Source: Pyrinomonadaceae bacterium
GTDB lineage: Bacteria > Acidobacteriota > Blastocatellia > Pyrinomonadales > Pyrinomonadaceae
NCBI GenBank assembly: GCA_026129865.1
Contig: JAHCHG010000011.1
Location: 1 to 64,000, forward strand
Direction of reading: 5' to 3'
DNA length: 64,000 nucleotides
This document shows positions 999 through 13,180 of the stretch, piece by piece (position 1 is the stretch's first letter; every line of letters begins with the position of its first letter). The position numbers and the translations under genes are program-made. Under the pieces are notes generated by a model. That model did not search any database. It was not told the DNA's origin and saw only the letters and a list, made by a program, of their open reading frames with translations.

Positions 999-1204
999 GT
1001 AACTCCTCCAATTTACCTACGTGATCAAACTTGCGGAGAGAGATATTTCTCGCGTTTTTTCACGTCTGCTTCTTTATAACCTATCTTTTCAACTTACGCA
1101 TAGGGTTCGAACAAGTGGCGAATAAGTTTTAAGCTGTTTTGATCGCTTCTGTACCAATGAGTTAAAAGAATTCCCGCGCCTTAAGTTATGCCGAGACTGC
1201 TTAA

Positions 1205-1378
1205 ATCCAATTTGCTCGAATCGACAAAATTCGCCGGCTGAGTTTCGACATGTGAAAAGCGGTTAAAGCTCTGCCGATTTCCGAGACTTGCCGAGCGGTT
1301 ATAAGGTTCGGGCGAAGTCCCTCTTCCGGCGCGGTTTTCGTTTTTTCGGAACCAGGTGTGGTTGAGTCCGGTCAGAGT
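1205..1378 (-). pseudogene. remnant of an Rhs tip
   Basis: On the minus strand this segment reads without stops as TGLNHTWFRKNENRAGR, then TSPEPYNRSASLGN, then QSFNRFSHVE and NFVDSS. It lines up without gaps with the intact Rhs tip at 2950-3933; by eye about 45 of 55 residues match. Key positions of the tip motif have changed: RWTSPDP became RGTSPEP and DPSG became DSSK. No start, no upstream YD core and no ribosome site are present. Similarity stops abruptly at both ends; the 240 bases upstream (1379-1619) and 200 bases downstream (999-1204) hold nothing I recognise. It is an older, decayed copy of the tip. Confidence 0.85.
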
Positions 1379-1619
1379 AGAATCCCCACTTGTGATTCAA
1401 ATCTTTTATATCTCATCCAAGAAGTAAAAGTTAGACTTCGACTCTCCGCGAAAGGACAACCGAATCTGAAGATCGCCACCTCTTGCCTCGAAAAACGACA
1501 ATGATTCAGAAACTCGAACAAAACGCATGAAGAATTTGGAAATTGCAAAAAATCAGTAATCAGGACTATCTACCTGATTAAGATTTTGCATAACTAATTT
1601 TTCGACTCTCAATCATCCT

Positions 1620-1886
1620 TTAATTGACCCGCCTGGGCGACTTTGGTGGGGCGCTACTTTGTTCGTGTCGCGATTTGACTAATCGAACTGTCCATCCAGT
1701 GAACCACCCACCAATCGCGATTACGACGTAATATAAAGGATTGGTTAAATACGTATCTATCCATGGCGTCCCCGAATAGCACCAACACTCAACCGCATTT
1801 AGAAAATCGAAGATAATTGCGATCGCTACCAAAAGAACGCAAAGGGTAATGACGCCAATTATATAAGTAGTTAAAAAGTCTTTCAT
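1620..1886 (-). CDS. small two-helix membrane protein
   Basis: An 88-residue protein with a first hydrophobic helix at about residues 7-28, a Cys-containing loop (ECWCYSGTPW), a second helix at about 50-68 and a basic tail. GAGGGAA lies 8-9 bases before the ATG. It is the last gene of a run on the same strand that starts with the Rhs tip at 3933, with only 14 bases to the gene before it. No family recognised. Candidate immunity or accessory protein of the Rhs module by position only. Confidence 0.6.
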   Translation of the reverse strand: MKDFLTTYIIGVITLCVLLVAIAIIFDFLNAVECWCYSGTPWIDTYLTNPLYYVVIAIGGWFTGWTVRLVKSRHEQSSAPPKSPRRVN

Positions 1887-1900
1887 TACAACTTATTCCC

Positions 1901-2293
1901 TCAAAAAGCAGTTAAAGAATTGTTTATGCTCGAAAATCGATTTTTCAACAGATCATTACACTTTGAGCGACTAGCCTGACGTCGCTTTAGCCAGTCTTCA
2001 CGTTTCACTGCGTTTGGGTGGTCTGCTTTAATATCCGAAAGCATATTTGCACTTTGCTGATTGTAAACATCAAGACTGATTCCAGAGGAATCTGCTGACG
2101 CTCCATATCCAATTCCTCCGCCGACGATTACTCCAATAACACATCCCGGTCCACTTCCTACGACACAGCCAAAAAGCGACCCCGTTACTGCGCCTAACGC
2201 GGTCCAATATTTTGTGGAATAGTTTTGTTTCGCAAAGCCATCTGTTGCGCTTGAACATACTAAGTCAATCGTGCACTTTTGTGCGGGATTCAA
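1901..2293 (-). CDS. glycine-zipper membrane-associated protein
   Basis: The 130-residue product carries a glycine-rich hydrophobic stretch at about residues 33-65 (ALGAVTGSLFGCVVGSG, then GVIVGGGIGYGASAD), the signature of a glycine zipper that packs in a membrane. The start is a TTG overlapping the TGA of the gene before it, with AGGAAAG just upstream, so translation is probably coupled. No clear signal peptide. The C-terminal half is polar and unrecognised. Part of the small-gene run behind the Rhs tip. Confidence 0.6.
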   Translation of the reverse strand: MNPAQKCTIDLVCSSATDGFAKQNYSTKYWTALGAVTGSLFGCVVGSGPGCVIGVIVGGGIGYGASADSSGISLDVYNQQSANMLSDIKADHPNAVKREDWLKRRQASRSKCNDLLKNRFSSINNSLTAF

Positions 2294-2703
2294 TCTGCTT
2301 TCCTAATAAATTTGTAATTATAAAGTAAGAACTCGCCACCTTCTCTCACAAACATAAACTCATCCGATTTGATATTTGGGCAATTTTGACAATCGTACGC
2401 AAGGATAAAGAGGGTGCCTTCCCTTACGTCAATTCGCGTTGTCCAGCTGGAACTAATAAAGCTATTCGACGCACCAATCTCGTCTTCAAACCCTGACAAT
2501 GCGTTTCTAAAATTTTCTTCATCCGTAGCGAGCTTGAATGCTTCACTAGCCTGATTATAAATCTGTGAATACTCCCGCTTTTGAACAAGCCCACGAATTT
2601 CGCCAACCTCCTTTTCACAAGAAATTTTATAGCTGCTCGAAGATTCGCAGGAAAACGATAGAATCCCAAAGAACAATAAAGATGCGGTTATCAATTCCTT
2701 CAT
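2290..2703 (-). CDS. putative lipoprotein of unknown function
   Basis: A 137-residue protein with a short signal peptide ending in GILSFSCES, a plausible though atypical lipobox with Cys at 19. The mature part has a helical stretch (residues 32-75) followed by strands and a Cys-rich YDCQNCP turn. The shape recalls small DUF4019-like proteins, but I cannot assign it. It overlaps the next gene by 4 bases (TTGA) and follows the 66-residue membrane protein by 12 bases, so the set is one transcript behind the Rhs tip. Confidence 0.6.
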   Translation of the reverse strand: MKELITASLLFFGILSFSCESSSSYKISCEKEVGEIRGLVQKREYSQIYNQASEAFKLATDEENFRNALSGFEDEIGASNSFISSSWTTRIDVREGTLFILAYDCQNCPNIKSDEFMFVREGGEFLLYNYKFIRKAD

Positions 2704-2715
2704 AGCGCGACCTTC

Positions 2716-2916
2716 CTAAAGAAACGGGATAATTATTCCGAATGTAACTAGTAATGCTCCGACAAGGAAAATATTTTCTCGCGCATTAAAAAAATTGTAA
2801 ACAAAGAAACGACTTTCCGAGCTAATGTTAAATAATCCGCGGCTCAACGTCCGGTTAAAAACCAGCACAGCTGAACCGCTCAAAATTAATATAATTCCTA
2901 GCGCATTTTGAAACAT
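2716..2916 (-). CDS. small membrane protein
   Basis: A 66-residue, very hydrophobic protein with helices at about residues 4-20 and 48-66 and a polar middle (RTLSRGLFNISSESR). It is the first gene after the Rhs tip, 33 bases downstream of the tip stop, which is where immunity genes of Rhs toxins normally sit. No family recognised and no strong ribosome site, so the call rests on position and composition. Confidence 0.5.
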   Translation of the reverse strand: MFQNALGIILILSGSAVLVFNRTLSRGLFNISSESRFFVYNFFNARENIFLVGALLVTFGIIIPFL

Positions 2917-2949
2917 TATCTGATTAATTCGAAAAAACTTAGTCTATAA

Positions 2950-3933
2950 TTACTGGCAATCTTTCTTGCCGCTCGGGTGATTTAGAAGTCTTGCACTTCT
3001 GATCAAGCCGACGGACGCATGAGGCGACGCAGCGCCGACGGAAGTTGTAATCTCGTTTGTGCCCGTTAGCGGAACGGAGACATTTCCACCTAAAGGGAAT
3101 ACTCCTGCACTTCCCGTAACAAATACGCCTTCACTCGGTCTCGAGTTGTTTGTCGTGATTGACCCGGATGGTAAGTTCGTGCCGCCCTGAATTCCTCCAT
3201 AAACATTAGTATAATGTTTACCAATCTGCAGTCCAAACTGGTAAGGTCCGACAGATACATTTAGATCCGTGGTATTTCCGCAACGATCTTCGCGTTTTGT
3301 CGGCGCTTTTGCTTTTGAGATCGTTGCTTCAGCCCGAACAGTGTTATTCGGTCCGCCGCCTACATCCTGAATAGTAAGAAGCGGCGTCGGATTTGATACG
3401 AACAAAGTGATGCATTCGTAGTTCCAACGCGCGGGAATATATGTAGTGATCCCGTCGTCGTCAGTATATATTACGGCAGCGTAACGAACCCATTGACAAA
3501 CAGAGGCTATTTGAAGTCCAGACGGATCGACAAAATTCGTCGGCTGATTTTCGACATACGAAAAGCGATTGAACGACTGCGGATTCCCCAAACTAGCCGA
3601 ACCGTTATACGGATCCGGCGAAGTCCATCTTCCGGCGCGGCTTTCGTTTTTGCGAAACCAGGTGTGATTGAGTCCGGTCGAATCGTCCTTTTCCGTCAGC
3701 CCGTAGCCCTGCCGCGTGCTGACGCCGCCGCCGAAACCCTGCGCTGCAGTTCGCAAACCCGTTCCGGCATTGATCTCTTCCCCAAATGCCTGATAATCCG
3801 TCCGCGATCGTACAAACCCCGAATTGCTCACCGAAGCCCTGACCGAACCCTGCCAGTCCGACAAAACATATTTCACACCGCCTACGTTCGGCGAATCTAT
3901 ACAGGCGTATTGTGGGTTCCAATTGAAATACAT
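2950..3933 (-). CDS. orphan Rhs tip (C-terminal Rhs fragment)
   Basis: The 327-residue frame starts inside what is normally the end of a large Rhs/YD-repeat protein. Residues 23-60 carry YVLSDWQGSVRAS and DYQAFGEEI; residues 87-140 carry the conserved tip GLNHTWFRKNE, RAGRWTSPDPYNG, SFNRFSYVENQP and FVDPSGL. The variable tail after DPSGL (about 141-327) is Gly/Ser/Thr-rich and matches no toxin fold I know. No YD repeats exist upstream; a lipase gene ends 15 bases before. GGTGAAAGGCG in front of the ATG suggests that the fragment is still translated. In Rhs loci, displaced tips like this arise when a new tip recombines into the core gene. It may be non-functional alone. Confidence 0.8.
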   Translation of the reverse strand: MYFNWNPQYACIDSPNVGGVKYVLSDWQGSVRASVSNSGFVRSRTDYQAFGEEINAGTGLRTAAQGFGGGVSTRQGYGLTEKDDSTGLNHTWFRKNESRAGRWTSPDPYNGSASLGNPQSFNRFSYVENQPTNFVDPSGLQIASVCQWVRYAAVIYTDDDGITTYIPARWNYECITLFVSNPTPLLTIQDVGGGPNNTVRAEATISKAKAPTKREDRCGNTTDLNVSVGPYQFGLQIGKHYTNVYGGIQGGTNLPSGSITTNNSRPSEGVFVTGSAGVFPLGGNVSVPLTGTNEITTSVGAASPHASVGLIRSARLLNHPSGKKDCQ

Positions 3934-3948
3934 CGCCTTTCACCGTGA

Positions 3949-6900
3949 CTAAAAGGGCTTTGCCATTAGCACGAAATCGTTTATGTCCTCGGAAGTTTGA
4001 AAAAGTACGGGATCAAACCTGTATTCCTTGTGCCGCGTGAATATAATGACTGACGACCCGGCTGCAATCGTATCAAATGAGAAATAGCCTAGCGGATTAG
4101 TTTCTGCCGTCTTTATTTCGTTGCTCCCGAGATCAAACACTGTAATCTGAGCCCGAGCAATTGGTAGCCCTTCACTCGTTAACACCGCGCCTCGCAGTGA
4201 AATACTTGCAACGGTTGGTGAAAGGCGCAATCCAACATCAATTGTCACATTGTTGGTTATTCCTGAGTACTCATCGAGGTATGTGTTTTCAAGAATCCCT
4301 CGAGCCCCCGGTGAGAGAGTTATTGGTCTGGTCAATACGAACTGCGAGTCAACGCCCTCACCGACGGCTCCATTATTGTCATAATCGATATTGTCATCGG
4401 GTGTGTCTGAAGCGACGGAACTTGCCGCAACAAATTGTCTTTCGAGTTTTACTATATAAGTTCCCGCGTTCAATCCTTGAAATGAATAGTTACCATTTTC
4501 GTCCGTCAGCACACCGGTTAGTTCGTCATCCGAAGTGCCCAAAATACCATCGAGACCGACAGGAATCTGATTTCCGCCTCCATCAAAGATTCTGACAGTG
4601 AAATTTGAAATTCCCTGCTCGTCCTCATCTTGGATTCCATTATCAGAATTCGATCCATTCCCGCTATCATTCCAAACGGTTCCCGATAACCCCAGCCGGT
4701 AAAACCCAAAGTCAACGGTCAAGTTTGCAAATCCATCGAATTCATTCCGATCATCAGCGGAAGTGTCGAGTTCTCCGGTCGGCTCGCTAAAATCAGGTCC
4801 GAGCTCTATCGTGCCGCTGTAAATTCCAACCGTTCGCATCGATCGATTTCCTCCCACGGAAATGATGCCGTCCTCGCCCGCACGGGTTGAATCAGAATCT
4901 ACTTCCGCCGAAACTTGTGCTGTAGAATTGCGGTATCCGGACAAGACGCTTCCGTCTTCAAAATTTGAAGGGTCGATCCGGACAACGTACGTACCCGTGC
5001 TTAGAGAATCGAAGCGATAATATCCTTCTCCATCGCTTCGCGTAGTCGCCAGCGGCTGGGAAATATCATCAGGCACCCCATCGGCATTACTATCAACAAA
5101 CAACGAGACGGACACACTTTCCGCTCCCCTTTCCTGGAGAAGAGCGTCATTATTGATCTTTCCGTCATTATTTATGTCAAACCAGACACGGTTTCCGATT
5201 GAATACGTGCGTCCCACAAGCTCGATCGGCGAAATCCCCGATCGGTTTAAATTGTTGTCCTCAGCAAATGCATAGATTACTTCTTGAGCGCTCCCAACAT
5301 GAATTGGAGCCACGTACGGGCTAAAATCTTGCCCATTGAGCGAGTAGAAGATTGCTCTCAAACCCGAACCCTTATCAATTCCATATAAAGAGACAACTTT
5401 TCCATACGCCCCATTTGAATAATCGAAACTGAGAAGAGGAGATTCGATGTCATTCGCTTGAGCTCCGTCAACGACCAACGTGGGCTCAATGTAGGTGTCC
5501 GGAAAACCATCGTTATCTGTATCAACATAGAGTCTAGGATTATCGAAAGGGGCAATAATCATTTCGCATTGGGAATTTGCAGGCAGATCTAAGTCAAGAT
5601 AAACAACTGATTTCTCAATCCGATCATAGTCAAGTCCTTTCATTACATCGATCCGAACGGGCTCGGTTTCGGATTTGAAGGACACCTTATAACTCTTATC
5701 TGCTGGCATGGCTAGCCAAGCGCTTTGATCGTTCATTGGTAGCGCTTGCATCCCATTCTCCCCTGAACCTCCAATGATCGTGGGTTGACTGTCAAAGGGA
5801 ACGGAACTAAAGGCTCCTACGTTGTTGAGCTTCACATAGAATGCCGGGGTTTCGCCACTAATCATTTCATCATTCTTAAAAGAACTCGTTAAGGTAACAG
5901 GTTGATCATTATCTTCGGGCAGACCTGAATTAGAACTTTTGCCCTTTAAAATTTGTGCAAGCGTCGAGTGCACTTGGTGGTTCGATACCAAACCGTTATG
6001 TTCCACTTTGCTATTTGTTTGACCAGTTTGAGTACGGGCATTAGCAATATACCTCTTTGCGTAAACATTATTTAGATTGTGGGATAGACTAATTCGCCTA
6101 CTGCTTAACAACGGAACCGTCCCATCACCTTCTGTAGGAACAGGCTCAAACGAGTTTTTGACAAAACAGCGATACGGCGGGAGTGCTGGACCGCAAAAAG
6201 TTCTTTCGACAACCTTTATTTGCCCCACCGTTAAATTCGCGTTTTGAAGTCCATAAATGTGGAAGTAGTTTACATCAGATGTATCAGTCCGCCAGTCGTC
6301 CTGAAGTCCCTGATAGTCAAAAGAATGAAAAGCTTGACTTGTGATTCCTGGAAAAGTCTCGTGTCTTCGATTTAGCCAGGAATTAGTTTGCGCGTACGAA
6401 TACTGTTCTTCGTTGGACCAAGAATATTTGCGAACACTAAGCGGCGATCTAAATCCGACTAAAGACCGGTGACTTTCGTTTAGATCGAAGTAACGCTCCG
6501 ACGGCAATAATTGAATCGGTCCGGGAAACGTTTTAAGTGCTGCCTTTAAATAGCTTGCCACAGCAAAATTGGCACCTTGTTCGGTGATCGTTGCCTCGAA
6601 CGCTGGGGCAATAAAGTTTCCTGTTTCGAGGGCATGAATAGCCTTTGGAGCACCTAGAAAAGGACTTCCAATTGTAATCAATTTTCCAATGCCATGATTG
6701 GATGGATTGTCCAGTACGTATCGACGGGCTACCAGTCCGCCCATACTATGCGCCACGATGTTTACACGTCCTCCGGGATGGAAAACCCGAATGCACTCCA
6801 CATACTCTCTGAGGCTTTGTGCGGTTTGAGCATTTGATTTTCTCCAGTCGTATGCAAATACGAATACTCGCGGTTTCAAATTAGGATCGTCGGAGTTTTG

Positions 6901-7899
6901 AGATCTATCGCAACCGATTTCCGTGCGTCGTTCTGGAATTCCTGCAACCTCATAAAGACGACCGATGGAGTCTGGGTTAGTCGGATCAGTTAAGAAACGC
7001 AAAATTTCCCTATAAAAATCCGCTGGAAAACGATTGTCAAAGTATATTTGATTGTGAAAAATGTCAGTTGCAATGATATTCCTATTACTTGGAAGTTTTA
7101 GGGCGTTGATGTCTACATTGGCAAGTAAAATACGTGGTGAAAGCCACCTGACGCCAGTTCCTACTTCCCGTAGTTCGCTGGCGGCGACTCCAGGAATTAG
7201 GATTACCGGTTCATTGGTGTTTGGAGGGGCAGGCGTGGGTCCGCCACCTCCACCTCCGTAAATGTCTGTAAACCTAACATTGTCAACTGCAAATGCCCAG
7301 TCCGAAGAATCAATAGCTCGTATTGAAACCTTGCGAACAGCGAGTACTTCCTTTGGGTCAAATCCCAGATCGGAAGTCATCGAAATCATCCGGTAAGGGT
7401 ATTGCGGCTCCCACTCGCTCCTTTCAGTCGCTTGATACAACCTTGATATTGAGTCATTTATTCTTATTTCGTATACTGCAGGAACTTTAGTCTGAATTCT
7501 CAAACTCTCCAAAGTGACTGCGCGTGAAAATTCGATCATGACTAATTCTGAATGCTCTGTCTGTTCACCAGGGGAGTTCCCATTCCTGTAAAATTTGCGA
7601 GACGTATAACCTGCGAGCCCAGAGCATTGATTGGTTGCAAAGACTCCGCCCAACCTCTTACCACCGTTGAAACTGACAAAGAAGTTTTCAATGCGTGTAT
7701 CTCTGATTATTAGAGTCTTGCGGAGCAAACTTCCACAACCTCCCCAACCAAATTGCCCCAGCGGGTATACCCCGCGCCAAAAACTAATTGGATCGTGAAA
7801 AACTTCCGAGTTTCTAATTATTTGAGCCGAAATTTGACCTGTAAGAAGGACTATTAAAATCCCTACACTCAGAGTGAGCGCTTCTATTCTAATCTTCAT
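3949..7899 (-). CDS. large secreted LCAT/lipase-like esterase with SdrD-type domains
   Basis: 1316 residues. Signal peptide at 1-26 ends GQISAQ. Residues 27-215 form an N-terminal beta-rich domain, followed by a GGGGGG/Pro linker. The alpha/beta hydrolase domain (about 230-640) has PVILIPGVAASEL (oxyanion region), FAYDWRKS and the nucleophile elbow AHSMGGLVARR near 384, followed by GSPFLGAP, as in LCAT-type and triacylglycerol lipases. After a spacer come two SdrD B-like repeats: one from about 898 (GNRVWFDINNDG), the second from about 1070 (GTVWNDSGNGSNSDNG). A final carboxypeptidase-regulatory-like fold lies at about 1233-1316. The product is probably exported and held at or outside the surface, hydrolysing lipid esters; substrate unknown. 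It is not clear why an Rhs tip follows 15 bases later. Confidence 0.85.
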   Translation of the reverse strand: MKIRIEALTLSVGILIVLLTGQISAQIIRNSEVFHDPISFWRGVYPLGQFGWGGCGSLLRKTLIIRDTRIENFFVSFNGGKRLGGVFATNQCSGLAGYTSRKFYRNGNSPGEQTEHSELVMIEFSRAVTLESLRIQTKVPAVYEIRINDSISRLYQATERSEWEPQYPYRMISMTSDLGFDPKEVLAVRKVSIRAIDSSDWAFAVDNVRFTDIYGGGGGGPTPAPPNTNEPVILIPGVAASELREVGTGVRWLSPRILLANVDINALKLPSNRNIIATDIFHNQIYFDNRFPADFYREILRFLTDPTNPDSIGRLYEVAGIPERRTEIGCDRSQNSDDPNLKPRVFVFAYDWRKSNAQTAQSLREYVECIRVFHPGGRVNIVAHSMGGLVARRYVLDNPSNHGIGKLITIGSPFLGAPKAIHALETGNFIAPAFEATITEQGANFAVASYLKAALKTFPGPIQLLPSERYFDLNESHRSLVGFRSPLSVRKYSWSNEEQYSYAQTNSWLNRRHETFPGITSQAFHSFDYQGLQDDWRTDTSDVNYFHIYGLQNANLTVGQIKVVERTFCGPALPPYRCFVKNSFEPVPTEGDGTVPLLSSRRISLSHNLNNVYAKRYIANARTQTGQTNSKVEHNGLVSNHQVHSTLAQILKGKSSNSGLPEDNDQPVTLTSSFKNDEMISGETPAFYVKLNNVGAFSSVPFDSQPTIIGGSGENGMQALPMNDQSAWLAMPADKSYKVSFKSETEPVRIDVMKGLDYDRIEKSVVYLDLDLPANSQCEMIIAPFDNPRLYVDTDNDGFPDTYIEPTLVVDGAQANDIESPLLSFDYSNGAYGKVVSLYGIDKGSGLRAIFYSLNGQDFSPYVAPIHVGSAQEVIYAFAEDNNLNRSGISPIELVGRTYSIGNRVWFDINNDGKINNDALLQERGAESVSVSLFVDSNADGVPDDISQPLATTRSDGEGYYRFDSLSTGTYVVRIDPSNFEDGSVLSGYRNSTAQVSAEVDSDSTRAGEDGIISVGGNRSMRTVGIYSGTIELGPDFSEPTGELDTSADDRNEFDGFANLTVDFGFYRLGLSGTVWNDSGNGSNSDNGIQDEDEQGISNFTVRIFDGGGNQIPVGLDGILGTSDDELTGVLTDENGNYSFQGLNAGTYIVKLERQFVAASSVASDTPDDNIDYDNNGAVGEGVDSQFVLTRPITLSPGARGILENTYLDEYSGITNNVTIDVGLRLSPTVASISLRGAVLTSEGLPIARAQITVFDLGSNEIKTAETNPLGYFSFDTIAAGSSVIIFTRHKEYRFDPVLFQTSEDINDFVLMAKPF

Positions 7900-8038
7900 G
7901 ACGTGAGATTCGACGATGGTTGATACAATCGTCTTTCGATTGAATTATTTTTTTCAGGTATTATAAATAAAATTACGTTTTTGTAAAGAAAAAAATGAGC
8001 CCTCTTAATTGGACTGATAAGTCTTTCAATAACAGTCG

Positions 8039-8590
8039 CTAAAACCCTATCCGGCTCGTGGGGTGACAAATAATGACTGTGTTGTGTTTTAACTCCTTTC
8101 GTGTGAATTCCGTAAAAGGCAATTGATCCAAAACACTGATTAAACCTCGATCGATTACGTGATCTGGTACGCGTGAATCAATATGATTTGAAGATTCCCC
8201 GGCATTGGAAGGATCGGTGGTACCTGATGCGGATAGGGACACTTTTGTGAATTGTTTGCCTCCAGCGCGAGTATTTTGAAATCTGAGGCTGTATTGGATA
8301 TCGCCGATTATGGTTGCGGTTGCAAGTTGTTCGGATCCGAAGTACGTGATTCGAGATTTTGAATTGGGATCATTTCTGACTTTCCTTTCAAGGTCGTCCA
8401 AATCTTGTAATTCACCTAGCCTTTCGCTACCAGGTTTAAGTCCGATGTACTTGTAAGCACATCCAAACAAAGTTAGATTGGACGACCACGAGTAATAGTA
8501 ATGATTCGTAATCAATGCAACGAAGGACACCAGCAGGACAAAAACTCCTAATCCGATACCAAGTTTTACACGAGAATATTTAACTAACAT
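8039..8590 (-). CDS. membrane-anchored protein of unknown function
   Basis: 183 residues with one N-terminal membrane helix (about residues 10-28) and a soluble part outside it. The soluble part has strands (IIGDIQYSLRFQN) and a Cys at 44 and near the C-terminus. No family recognised. It stands alone between the ATP synthase terminator and the lipase gene. Confidence 0.6.
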   Translation of the reverse strand: MLVKYSRVKLGIGLGVFVLLVSFVALITNHYYYSWSSNLTLFGCAYKYIGLKPGSERLGELQDLDDLERKVRNDPNSKSRITYFGSEQLATATIIGDIQYSLRFQNTRAGGKQFTKVSLSASGTTDPSNAGESSNHIDSRVPDHVIDRGLISVLDQLPFTEFTRKELKHNTVIICHPTSRIGF

Positions 8591-8644
8591 AGGGACGCAA
8601 ATTCCTCGTTGAAAATTTTACGACTTTTATTCGTATAAAGACAA

Positions 8645-8702: not shown

Positions 8703-9578
8703 TTACGCCGCGGCGGCACCTGATACGACTTCGATAATTTCCTTTGTGATCGCAGCCTGGCGGATGCGGTTCATGTTTAGGGTCAAACTGTCGATCAGTT
8801 CGCCTGCGTTCTTCGAAGCCGAATCCATCGCGGTCATTCGCGAACCTTGTTCGGAAGCAACGGATTCGAGCATTGCGCGGTAGATCTGCGTTTGGACCTG
8901 CATCGGAAGCAATTTTCCGAAGATCTCTTCCGCCGGCTGTTCGTAAATATATTCCGCCTGCGCGCCGGTGTCTTCGGTCGATTCAGTTTTAATCGACGGA
9001 ATCGGCAAAAGCTGTTCAACTTTTACCGTTTGCGTCAAAACAGTCTTAAATTCCGTGAAAACGAGAAAAACCTTGTCGATCGATTCGTCGTCGGTAAACG
9101 TCTTCGTTACTTTTTGCGCGATCTCCATTGCATCGGAGAGTTCGACGCGTCCCGATCCGGTCAACCCGATATATTCTTCGACGAAATCGATCGAACGACG
9201 CTTAAAGAAATCGCGTCCTTTTCGACCGACCGGAATCATTTCAGCCTGTTTATCCGAATTTTCCTTCAGAAAATTCTGCGCGGCTTTCATAATATTGGCA
9301 TTAAAACCGCCGCACAGTCCTTTGTCCGCGCTGACCAGAACGATCAAATATTTCTCATCGCCGCGCTCGTTAAGAAGCGGTGATGAAAATTCCGTTCCGA
9401 TGTTGGCGCTTAAGTTTCCAAGAACTTCGCCCATTTTTACGGCAAACGGACGCGCCGCGGTGACGTTATCCTGCGCGCGTTTCAGCTTTGCCGCGGCGAC
9501 CATCTTCATCGCTTTGGTAATCTGCTGTGTGTTTTTTACCGACTTAATACGTCGGCGCATATCTAATAAGCTTGGCAT
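8703..9578 (-). CDS. atpG: ATP synthase gamma subunit
   Basis: 291 residues, the usual length. The N-terminus MPSLLDMRRRIKSVKNTQQI and the C-terminus NRIRQAAITKEIIEVVSGA are the two conserved helices of the coiled-coil rotor shaft in the alpha3beta3 ring. SADKGLCGGFN near residue 81-91 is the central conserved motif. It couples c-ring rotation to ATP synthesis in F1. It is the last gene of the operon; the beta and epsilon genes that often follow are absent and the operon ends at a terminator. Confidence 0.97.
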   Translation of the reverse strand: MPSLLDMRRRIKSVKNTQQITKAMKMVAAAKLKRAQDNVTAARPFAVKMGEVLGNLSANIGTEFSSPLLNERGDEKYLIVLVSADKGLCGGFNANIMKAAQNFLKENSDKQAEMIPVGRKGRDFFKRRSIDFVEEYIGLTGSGRVELSDAMEIAQKVTKTFTDDESIDKVFLVFTEFKTVLTQTVKVEQLLPIPSIKTESTEDTGAQAEYIYEQPAEEIFGKLLPMQVQTQIYRAMLESVASEQGSRMTAMDSASKNAGELIDSLTLNMNRIRQAAITKEIIEVVSGAAAA

Positions 9579-9593
9579 AAAATCTAGTTAACA

Positions 9594-9632
9594 GTTGAAA
9601 GCCGATAGTGAATAAAACTATCAACTTTCAAC
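9594..9632. repeat. intergenic stem-loop between atpA and atpG
   Basis: GTTGAAAG (9594-9601) and GATAGT (9604-9609) pair with ACTATC (9617-9622) and CTTTCAAC (9625-9632), giving about 14 base pairs with a small internal loop. There is no T run, so it is not a standard terminator. It may tune the mRNA level or stability of the distal gamma gene. Confidence 0.7.
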
Positions 9633-9650
9633 TATCCGTTATCCACTGCG

Positions 9651-11189
9651 CTAGGCTTTTGCCGCGCCCGCCGTTTCTTTGTTCCAACGAGTAGATTTGA
9701 AATCTTCGATCGATGTACGAAGCGACGACTTCATATCGTCGTCGATCGATTTTTTCGTTCTTAAATTTTCCAACACCGCCGGATGAGAATTCTTTAGGAA
9801 ATCGAGCAGTTCTTCTTCAAAGCGCTTGAGATCTTCAACCGCCACATCGTCGACCAAACCGTTCGTCGCCGTCCAGATAATTACAACCTGATTTTCGACT
9901 TCCATCGGTTTGTATTGACCTTGCTTCAGGATCTCGGTCAAACGCTTGCCGCGTTCGAGCTGTGCCTGCGTCGCTTTATCAAGATCCGAACCAAACTGCG
10001 CAAACGCCGCCAACTCGCGATACTGCGCAAGGTCGATACGGAGCGTACCGGCAACCTGCTTCATCGCCTTAACCTGCGCCGCGCCGCCCACACGCGAAAC
10101 GGAGTTTCCTACGTTGATCGCGGGACGAATACCGGAGTTGAAAAGGTCTGCTTCAAGGAAGATCTGACCGTCGGTGATCGAAATTACGTTGGTCGGAATG
10201 TACGCCGAAATGTCGCCCGCCTGGGTTTCGATGATCGGAAGACTCGTCAACGAACCGCCGCCGCGAGCGTCCGACATTTTCGCGGCACGTTCGAGCAATC
10301 TTGAGTGTAGATAAAATACGTCGCCGGGATAAGCCTCGCGACCCGGGGGACGTCTCAGAAGCAATGAAATTTCACGATACGCCGCTGCCTGTTTCGAAAG
10401 ATCGTCATAGATCGTCAACGCGTGGCGACCGTTGTCGCGGAAATATTCGCCGATCGCGACGCCGGCGTACGGAGCCAAAAACTGCATCGCCGCCGGATCA
10501 GACGCCGTTGCGGAAACAACCACGGTGTAATCCATCGCGCCGTAGGTTTCAAGCTTTTTAACAACCTGCGCAACCGTCGAAGCTTTCTGACCGATCGCAA
10601 CATAAACGCAGATCACGTCTTTGCCCTTCTGGTTGATGATGGTGTCGATCGCAACCGCGGTTTTACCCGTCTGGCGGTCGCCGATGATAAGTTCGCGCTG
10701 TCCGCGACCGATCGGGACCATCGCGTCAATAGCTTTCAAACCGGTTTGAAGCGGTTCGCTAACGGGCTGGCGGTCGATAATTCCCGGCGCGATTCGTTCG
10801 ATCGGGTTAAACTCGTCGGCGATCACTTCGCCTTTTCCGTCGATCGGATTGCCGAGCGCGTCAACGACACGTCCGATCATGACATCGCCGACCGGAACGC
10901 TCATAATGCGACCCGTGCGCTTTACTTCGTCGCCTTCTTTGATCTTCTGGAAATCGCCGAAAAGTACGGCTCCGACCTTGTCTTCTTCAAGGTTTAGCGC
11001 CAAACCGCGCACGTCATAAGGAAATTCGAGCAGTTCGCCCGCCATGACCTTTTCGAGACCAAAAATTTCGGCGATACCGTCGCCGACCTTGATAACGGTT
11101 CCGACTTCGTTAACCGTCATGCTCGCATCGAAATTTTCGATCTGAGCGCGAATAATTTCATTAATTTCGTTGGCTTTGATTGCTTCCAT
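9651..11189 (-). CDS. atpA: ATP synthase alpha subunit
   Basis: 512 residues. An N-terminal beta-barrel is followed by the nucleotide-binding domain with P-loop [13 protein letters not shown] (about 170-182) and the conserved [20 protein letters not shown] stretch; the C-terminal helical domain includes [13 protein letters not shown]. The alpha subunit alternates with beta in F1 and binds non-catalytic ATP. It is preceded by atpH (68 bases) and followed by atpG (72 bases); both gaps contain palindromes. Confidence 0.98.
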
Positions 11190-11211
11190 ATTTTTTAATG
11201 GCGAATAGTGA

Positions 11212-11259
11212 ATCGTGAACCGTGAATGGTCTTTAGAAAACCATTGCCGATTTACGATT
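11212..11259. repeat. intergenic stem-loop between atpH and atpA
   Basis: AATCGT (11212-11217) pairs with ACGATT (11254-11259), and inside it AATGGT (11225-11230) pairs with ACCATT (11240-11245). It is built of short related words (GTGAATCGTGAACCGTGAATG). Like the 9594-9632 palindrome, it fills an atp intergenic gap. Confidence 0.6.
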
Positions 11260-11800
11260 AACCATTAACTAATTTATTTCTAAGTTCTTCTAATTGTGTT
11301 CTAACGGAGCCGTCATAAACGGTCGAACCGACGCGTGTAATGACTCCGCTGATGATATTTTCGTCTATATTAAAATCGAGATTGACCTGTTTTTTAGTAA
11401 GATTCGCGAGATTTGCCTGGAGTTCCGCCTTTTCCGCGTCGGACAACGGACGAGCCGATGTCACATTTGCAGAGATCAAACCGTTTCTTTCATCTAAAAC
11501 TTCGGCAAATCTTTCATTAATTGCCGAAATTTCGGTTAAACGGCTGTTTCGCAAAAGTATCTTTAAAAAATTTGCGGTCGTTTTCAAAGGTTTTGCTTTG
11601 GCGATCAATCCGCTTAAAAGTTTTTCTTTCGAAGCTTGTGCAACTGACGGATTTTTGAAAACCTTGTAAAGCTCGGTTCCCGGCGACATCATTTCGCCCC
11701 AGCTTTTTAATTCATTTTTGACAATTTCACTTTCGCCGGTTTTGAGAACAACATCGGCAAGAGCGCCGGCATAGCGCCGGGCGACGGTTTCAACACTCAT
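11258..11800 (-). CDS. atpH: ATP synthase delta subunit
   Basis: 180 residues, normal for delta/[20 protein letters not shown] at the start and the C-terminal [20 protein letters not shown] and [16 protein letters not shown] are the family signatures. It links the peripheral b/b' stalk to the top of F1. The start is one base after the atpF stop, so the two are probably translationally coupled. Confidence 0.96.
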
Positions 11801-11801
11801 T

Positions 11802-12368
11802 TTAGCTTAGACCTCCGATAGAACTGATCCCTGCTTTAACGAGCCGTTCATCAACCGATTTATCCATCGAACCTTTGATCTTTTCTTCCGCGCGGCGAAC
11901 GCTTTCTTCTGCAGAAAACCGCCGAAGTTCGCTCATAACCTGCTTGGTTTTTCGCGCGATCTCGGCATTTGCCTGATCGCGAAGGCGTTTTGCTTCAAAC
12001 TCTGCCTGCGCAATAATCCGTTCGCGCTCCGCTTCAGATTCCGAACGGGCTTTTTCAAGGATCTTTTCAGTTTCGGAATCGAGATTTGCGAGCCGTGTCT
12101 CCGCTTCCGACAGTTTCGCGAGCGCCGCCTTTCGTTCTTCCTCAGCTCTGATCAGATCCGCGCGAATCGCATCGCGTTTCGCCTTGAAAGCGCCGCTTAA
12201 CGGCTTTTTCAAGAGATAGACCATTATCGCGATGAAAATTCCCAGATTTAGAAACTTCCACGCTTCAAAACCCGGAAAATTGAAATATTTGTTCCATGTT
12301 TCCATGAAACCGCCGGCTTCACCGCCGCCTGCTGCCAGGAAAAAAAAGTTTAGTATTAAAGCAAACAT
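11802..12368 (-). CDS. atpF: ATP synthase b subunit
   Basis: 188 residues. One membrane helix sits near residues 36-54 (FLNLGIFIAIMVYLLKKP), followed by a long charged coiled coil (about 60-170) rich in Glu, Arg and Ala. This is the peripheral stalk subunit; it pairs with the b' product encoded just upstream. The extra hydrophobic N-terminus (residues 1-20) looks like a signal or second helix. Confidence 0.94.
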   Translation of the reverse strand: MFALILNFFFLAAGGGEAGGFMETWNKYFNFPGFEAWKFLNLGIFIAIMVYLLKKPLSGAFKAKRDAIRADLIRAEEERKAALAKLSEAETRLANLDSETEKILEKARSESEAERERIIAQAEFEAKRLRDQANAEIARKTKQVMSELRRFSAEESVRRAEEKIKGSMDKSVDERLVKAGISSIGGLS

Positions 12369-12422
12369 ATTATTAAATTTCGAAATCGAACTTCGAAATT
12401 TTCCGATTTAAAAATTTGCGCG

Positions 12423-12878
12423 CTAAGCAGTTTTCAAAATATTAGCACTGATCTTGTCAGCCATCTTTTCGGCTTCTTCTTCGATCGCAGCACGCGCAGC
12501 AGCGGTCTGTTTTTCAAGGTTCGCGAAATCGCTGGTGCTCTTGGCTTCGACCTCAGCCTTTACATTCGAGATCGCTTCCTCGCGCTGCTGAACCGCCGCG
12601 CGGCGTTCCTGTTCGATCAGTTCGTAGCCTTTGTTTCGAGCAGCGAGCATTTTAGCTTCGAGCTCAGCGTTTTTTCGTTCGACCTCGCTTAAAATTCTGT
12701 CCGCTTCGGAAACACCGCCGACGCCGTCCTTTTCACGAGCTTCGATGACCTTGTTGATCGGACGGAAGAACGTACGGTTCAAGACCCAGATCATGATCAG
12801 GATCATCGCAATATGGATCAGAATTGTGCCGTCCGGAAGCAGTTGAATTCCGCCTTCGGCAAATGCAAGAACTACCAT
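12423..12878 (-). CDS. ATP synthase b' subunit
   Basis: 151 residues with one membrane helix (about 16-36, ILIHIAMILIMIWVLNRTFF), the RPINKVIEAREK motif after it, and a coiled coil to the end. A second, shorter b-type gene next to atpF is the arrangement of photosynthetic bacteria and several other phyla that use a b/b' heterodimer stalk. It is the first gene of this operon; no a or c subunit gene lies upstream. Confidence 0.93.
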   Translation of the reverse strand: MVVLAFAEGGIQLLPDGTILIHIAMILIMIWVLNRTFFRPINKVIEAREKDGVGGVSEADRILSEVERKNAELEAKMLAARNKGYELIEQERRAAVQQREEAISNVKAEVEAKSTSDFANLEKQTAAARAAIEEEAEKMADKISANILKTA

Positions 12879-13080: not shown

Positions 13081-13180
13081 GGAGGCGCATCTCGTCTGGT
13101 GGCGGGCACGGTCTTCAAAACCGTTCGTGAGAATTGCGAGAGCAAGCTCAGGTGGGTTCGATTCCCACACGCCTCCGCCA
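13081..13180 (+). tRNA. selC: tRNA-Sec (anticodon UCA)
   Basis: A 100-nt tRNA including an encoded CCA end. The acceptor GGAGGCG pairs with CGCCTCC. The D stem is six base pairs (CTCGTC with GGCGGG) around a TGGT loop, a hallmark of tRNA-Sec. The anticodon stem ACGGT/ACCGT encloses CTTCAAA, giving anticodon TCA, which reads UGA. A long variable arm and the T arm GTGGG-TTCGATT-CCCAC follow. It implies that selenocysteine is used somewhere in this genome; selA, selB and selD are not in the window. Confidence 0.95.

Follow-up and report, generated by a model that had tools for sequence, protein, structure and literature searches.

How does the last part of an Rhs gene come to stand directly behind a lipase gene, with no Rhs core at the locus? 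The question arises in the stretch of DNA analysed here (the window), which comprises the first 64 kb of contig C3 in an assembly of 4.4 Mb and 21 contigs. On the minus strand, the genes upstream of this Rhs tip are, in order, the atp genes of an ATP synthase operon (8703-12878, identified from the sequence), a 183-aa ORF and a gene for a secreted LCAT-type lipase of 1316 aa, to which Pfam assigns SdrD_B and CarboxypepD_reg domains (3949-7899). The array of Rhs pieces follows downstream and, since base 1 of the window is also base 1 of the contig, may extend past it. Beside the operon, at 13081-13180, ARAGORN reports a tRNA-SeC gene.

Searches for relatives covered 119 genomes of the family, 162 of the class and 396 of the phylum, in sets that overlap. 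The genus consists of one genome, and because no congeneric genome entered the comparison, the ancestral full-length gene is not visible. Those relatives of the tip that carry names come from Blastocatellia and other Acidobacteriota bins. From this comparison and from the window itself, we consider it likely that this is the remnant of an Rhs locus that underwent serial displacement of its tips and then lost its core.

The gene at 2950-3933 (minus strand) encodes 327 aa, far short of the frames of about 1500-2165 aa found in its full-length relatives. Its Rhs-core part spans approximately 125 residues; residues 47-140 match the TIGR03696 model (Rhs_assc_core) with an E-value of 2.2e-12 and 47.3 bits, against a curated cut-off of 32.5, and the core end shares about 70% identity with its counterparts in Rhs genes of other genomes. 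The core closes with DPSGL at residues 136-140 and is followed by a tail of 187 residues, which bears out the original prediction that this gene is only the tip and tail of an Rhs protein. A remnant of core, the DPxGL motif and a variable tail are what characterize an orphan rhs-CT/rhsI module, a displaced 3' piece of an rhs gene, and 2950-3933 has all three. It is not downstream of a main rhs gene, a position that is usual for orphan modules and not required by their definition. The ribosome site that had been predicted is also present: the tip starts at its own ATG with CGGTGAAAGGCG in front, including an SD-like GGTGA/AAAGG. We saw no signal peptide on the tip.

Two further pieces of the same core lie downstream, again on the minus strand, giving at least three copies of the tip in the window. 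Fragment 2 (1217-1373) retains core residues ~85-137, with its tail gone and its DPSGL destroyed. When the window is compared with itself, its DNA aligns without gaps to 3523-3679 at 84% identity over 157 bp (E 2.8e-44); as protein (1193-1378) it is 74% identical and has no internal stop, and its frame terminates ...VDSSKLDLSSLGIT at the stop codon. Fragment 3 (233-287), also found by DNA self-comparison, retains core residues 95-112 and has lost the remainder; it is 80% identical to 3597-3651 over 55 bp (E 6.6e-8), with a protein match at 192-287 (E 1.3e-4). Two generations of tips had been predicted, the second being a decayed copy still in frame at 1205-1378. Both of these copies are confirmed, and the second is indeed open throughout; the count itself was too low, as the fragment at 233-287 had been missed.

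The order of decay can be read from the residues that hardly vary elsewhere. Within residues 86-140, 27 positions show a constancy of 95% or more among 29 tips taken from fetched loci of other genomes. Of these 27 positions, the front tip is changed at 0, fragment 2 at 6 (W103, G111, P137 and G139 among them) and fragment 3 at 3 of the 12 that it covers, while each of the 29 outside tips, left out in turn, departs at 0-2. Judged by this decay, the tips run from young to old going downstream, an order for which the evidence comes from two short pieces, of 157 and 55 bp. Between fragment 2 and the front tip, pN is 0.10 and pS 0.36, which indicates that most of their divergence arose with both copies under constraint and that decay came afterwards. 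Fragment 2 is also nearest to the front tip (84%), with the next best fetched tip elsewhere at 80%. This closeness to its neighbour is consistent with a single local gene having left both behind in succession.

These fragments bear directly on a different account of the junction, in which transposition or illegitimate recombination placed the tip cassette immediately after the lipase gene and a full core never stood at this place. The lipase gene ends normally, its stop (3949) lies just 15 bases upstream of the tip, and no remnant of core was found upstream of tip residue 8-18, all of which would be expected of such an insertion. Fragments 2 and 3, however, follow the tip in the same orientation, which implies that an Rhs core was extended repeatedly at this place, and the kinship of fragment 2 with 2950-3933 also argues for a local origin; we therefore regard direct insertion as unlikely.

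The intactness of the front tip raises another alternative, namely that it still works as an independent gene, translated from its own ATG and perhaps sharing a transcript with the lipase, and is kept for a function of its own or as a loaded spare. Its start codon and SD-like site, its open frame of 327 codons, the short gap to the lipase and the unchanged near-invariant core residues would all suit such a gene. Yet it has no export signal, recent displacement would explain its intactness equally well, and its dN/dS against other tips, ~0.16-0.19 where computable, mostly reflects time spent on a full gene. To our knowledge, moreover, a 125-residue piece of YD shell is unable to form the Rhs cage of solved relatives. 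We give this alternative little credence. Under serial displacement followed by core loss, the tip would be silent or a mere store of sequence: with no core at the locus, simple local recombination could not re-arm it, and its likeliest present role would be none, or that of a store of immunity genes.

As had been predicted, the full-length core is missing and a lipase gene stands in its place. The longest Rhs frame that we found in this genome is 742 aa, in a search limited by contig ends. Contigs of this assembly often end in or beside Rhs genes (C12 at both ends, C15 at its end and C2 at its start), which indicates that its Rhs content is under-assembled, and with several contigs ending in this way an intact core may yet lie elsewhere in the genome. 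The same contig ends could be taken to mean that the lipase-tip junction is itself an error of assembly caused by repeated Rhs sequence. This is very improbable, as the junction is 3.9 kb from the start of a contig of 153 kb, and nowhere else in the assembly is there a near-identical copy of either the tip or the contig start. The lipase was also considered as a part of an Rhs operon and set aside: its relatives, in six other genomes, are only ~35% identical, and none of them adjoins a tip.

A separate Rhs locus is present on contig C1 of the same genome (L016:2120-12001 and L161:481-3204). It has the one head of this genome with a signal-peptide-like start, which is 907 aa long and of another core type, and this head is broken by an IS110-like transposase gene (L016:8871-10268). 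After the head come tips at 6404-8626, 4885-5748 and 3124-3801 and a core piece at 2120-2695.

The core end of the front tip matches Rhs frames in 70 of the 119 family genomes at E <1e-10. Tip arrays are common in the family, and some lack a full core. In several genomes at least three tips follow one another in the same orientation, separated by one or two small ORFs, namely in G083:C17, G071:C3, G072:C280, G069:C23, G061:C29 and G100:C17 (given as genome and contig), and behind a nearly identical core end the tails after DPxGL vary from tip to tip. The array in G083:C17 is flanked by the gene of an ABC transporter and by a guaB-like gene, and its first member has only part of the core; that in G071:C3 is similar, a headless array beside unrelated genes. 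The window is therefore not exceptional in having lost the head. Three same-strand copies, decay that rises downstream and a matching architecture in many relatives together support the predicted serial displacement, and the tip gene was not found in related genomes as a stand-alone gene unlinked to Rhs cores, the pattern that the original prediction had named as contrary to it.

Two features of these arrays may be recorded here. The last tip copies in G083:C17 (L055:9135-9506) and G071:C3 (L056:9084-9512) stop at the same core residue, 125, and both run on into one and the same stretch unrelated to Rhs, SFNRYSKPTVGG..., apparently from an old breakpoint that the two have in common. The locus in G100:C17 (L060:1-15086) holds at least six tips, with core remnants carrying DUF4214 and a small gene behind nearly each tip.

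The tail of the front tip (residues 141-327), beyond the core, has no match among Pfam, NCBIfam or PHROGs profiles, in keeping with the earlier remark that it resembles no known toxin, and none in plasmids or viral contigs. Its first ~44 residues (VCQWVRY...) are common to a tip in G083 that has a different end (43%); beyond these, it has no relative in the 119 family, 162 class or 396 phylum genomes. An AlphaFold model from the single sequence gave a pLDDT of 30 and no usable fold. At class level there were matches with E-values of 0.005-0.04, which were inspected singly; none was an Rhs tip and none was convincing. The glycine-rich tails of the window, G100 and G007 look alike by eye, and sequence search finds no mutual match among them. 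The suggestion that the tail may be a new effector thus gained no backing from profiles, from full-length relatives in family, class or phylum, or from a predicted fold; nor did the profile and fold checks bring up a plain structural domain, the result that had been named as telling against it.

A toxin function for the tail would follow from its position only, and there is a limited possibility that residues 141-327 are a structural or degenerate extension, as the lack of profile matches beyond the core, the lack of relatives and the low pLDDT would suggest. Against this, the tail sits exactly after DPSGL, where sibling tips bear unrelated domains, and it shares its first ~44 residues with a tip that ends differently. 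Among the siblings, two carry an M23 peptidase (E 2e-20) and one carries VanY (E 7.5e-7), which is consistent with cell-wall-directed effectors on this type of core.

The small genes predicted behind the tip are there, and plausible ribosome sites precede 2703, 1886 and 998, all on the minus strand. Directly behind the tip, a small membrane protein of 66 aa (2716-2916) is a candidate immunity gene by position only. In G100 a small membrane ORF (L060:5590-5835) occupies the equivalent place, and the similarity of the two is not significant. The next gene, 2290-2703, encodes a probable lipoprotein of 137 aa that is DUF4019-like (E 5.7e-4, below the curated cut-off). A gene in G100:C17 (L060:5865-6362), two positions after a tip, is significantly similar to it (z 8.6 against shuffles), and a profile combining the two brings up one more relative, in G007:C5, where it lies two genes downstream of a full-length Rhs gene. 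The same profile matches many genes without Rhs nearby, and a strong linkage was rejected, since a tip is near only 2 of the 19 other fetched loci, in one of them at ~4 kb. The family would then be a general one, with a link to Rhs that is suggestive at best, and 2290-2703 is, weakly, the best of the window's candidate immunity genes.

The ORF that follows, 1901-2293, appears to be of another kind. It encodes a glycine-zipper protein of 130 aa from a TTG start, overlaps the end of 2290-2703 by 4 bases and carries no remnant of core. Its best non-self matches among 4739 ORFs of the fetched loci are Rhs tips from two other genomes (L056:7632-8678, E 0.001, and L067:2994-3920, E 0.015), and in both the match falls in the tail; against shuffles that keep local composition, the p-values for the two tails are 0.001 and 0.004. 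It is probably a displaced tip tail whose core remnant is gone, a grade that we do not raise because glycine-rich sequence inflates such scores.

Behind it, a membrane protein of 88 aa (1620-1886) may by its position be the immunity gene of this displaced tail, and one of 75 aa (771-998), behind fragment 2, may be a leftover immunity gene of that fragment; the latter has a good ribosome site (GGAGGAG) in the upstream sequence TTGGAGGAGTTACATG. The two share a marginal similarity (p ~0.007), and a relationship of 1620-1886 to the gene behind a tip in G071 (L056:8698) was no better than shuffles. Between fragments 2 and 3 lies a BamE-like small ORF of 70 aa (313-525; BamE E 0.0099, below the curated cut-off). 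The downstream genes had been proposed as immunity candidates, roles that we infer mainly from position. For 2290-2703 the proposal keeps a weak link to tips elsewhere, while 1901-2293 resembles a displaced tail instead. It seems rather improbable to us that the whole combination holds, in which the tail is a new family of antibacterial toxins kept in a coreless array, the orphan tip is translated from its own start, and the DUF4019-like lipoprotein guards against the toxin as a new immunity family.

The history that we propose begins with a full-length Rhs gene, which would have taken in cassettes of tip and immunity gene by recombination in its conserved core end. Every new cassette would have displaced the prior tip downstream as a headless piece, leaving a series with the oldest furthest downstream: 233-287, 1217-1373, probably 1901-2293 and then 2950-3933. 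The core would later have been deleted or moved elsewhere, in a manner that we can only infer, so that the last tip is now behind an unrelated lipase gene.

In the literature searched, we found no published description linking Blastocatellia with Rhs. Acidobacteria are among the bacteria for which a survey of polymorphic toxins records RHS carriers (Zhang et al. 2012, PMC3482391). Serial tip displacement has been worked out in enterobacteria and in vibrios; the locus would extend it to an acidobacterial family in which arrays reach up to six tips and the carrier core can be lost. The ordered leftovers in such arrays record past effector turnover, and their many unassigned tails offer candidates for new effectors.

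The orphan rhs-CT/rhsI modules of enterobacteria are described as fragments displaced from full-length rhs genes; most of them lack start signals, and their toxin is reusable after recombination onto the main gene (Poole et al. 2011, PMC3150448; Koskiniemi et al. 2014, PMC3967940). In EC93 cdi, the immunity genes are expressed while the tip is silent (PMC3150448). The window resembles them in its headless rhs end, with core up to DPxGL, a variable tail, small genes behind and several co-oriented copies. It differs in having no main rhs gene at the locus, in the start codon and SD-like site of its front tip, and in older tips decayed beyond use, with toxin and immunity roles that are putative; the related full-length genes examined, moreover, start with signal-peptide-like leaders and show, by eye, no recognisable PAAR domain. 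In Vibrio cholerae, T6SS effector-immunity modules are serially displaced and their immunity genes retained (Kirchberger et al. 2017, PMC5361080). There, too, the new arrives at the front, older effectors are lost and small downstream genes persist, but single effector genes are displaced, whereas the steps in the window are marked by pieces of Rhs core. In polymorphic toxins, a carrier gene that itself stays constant acquires toxin-immunity cassettes by recombination at its 3' end (Zhang et al. 2012, PMC3482391); the cassettes of the window would follow the same plan, with a tail that, unlike theirs, fits no Pfam or NCBIfam model. The locus behaves as these displacement models predict, and what differs here is the absent main gene and the advanced state of decay.
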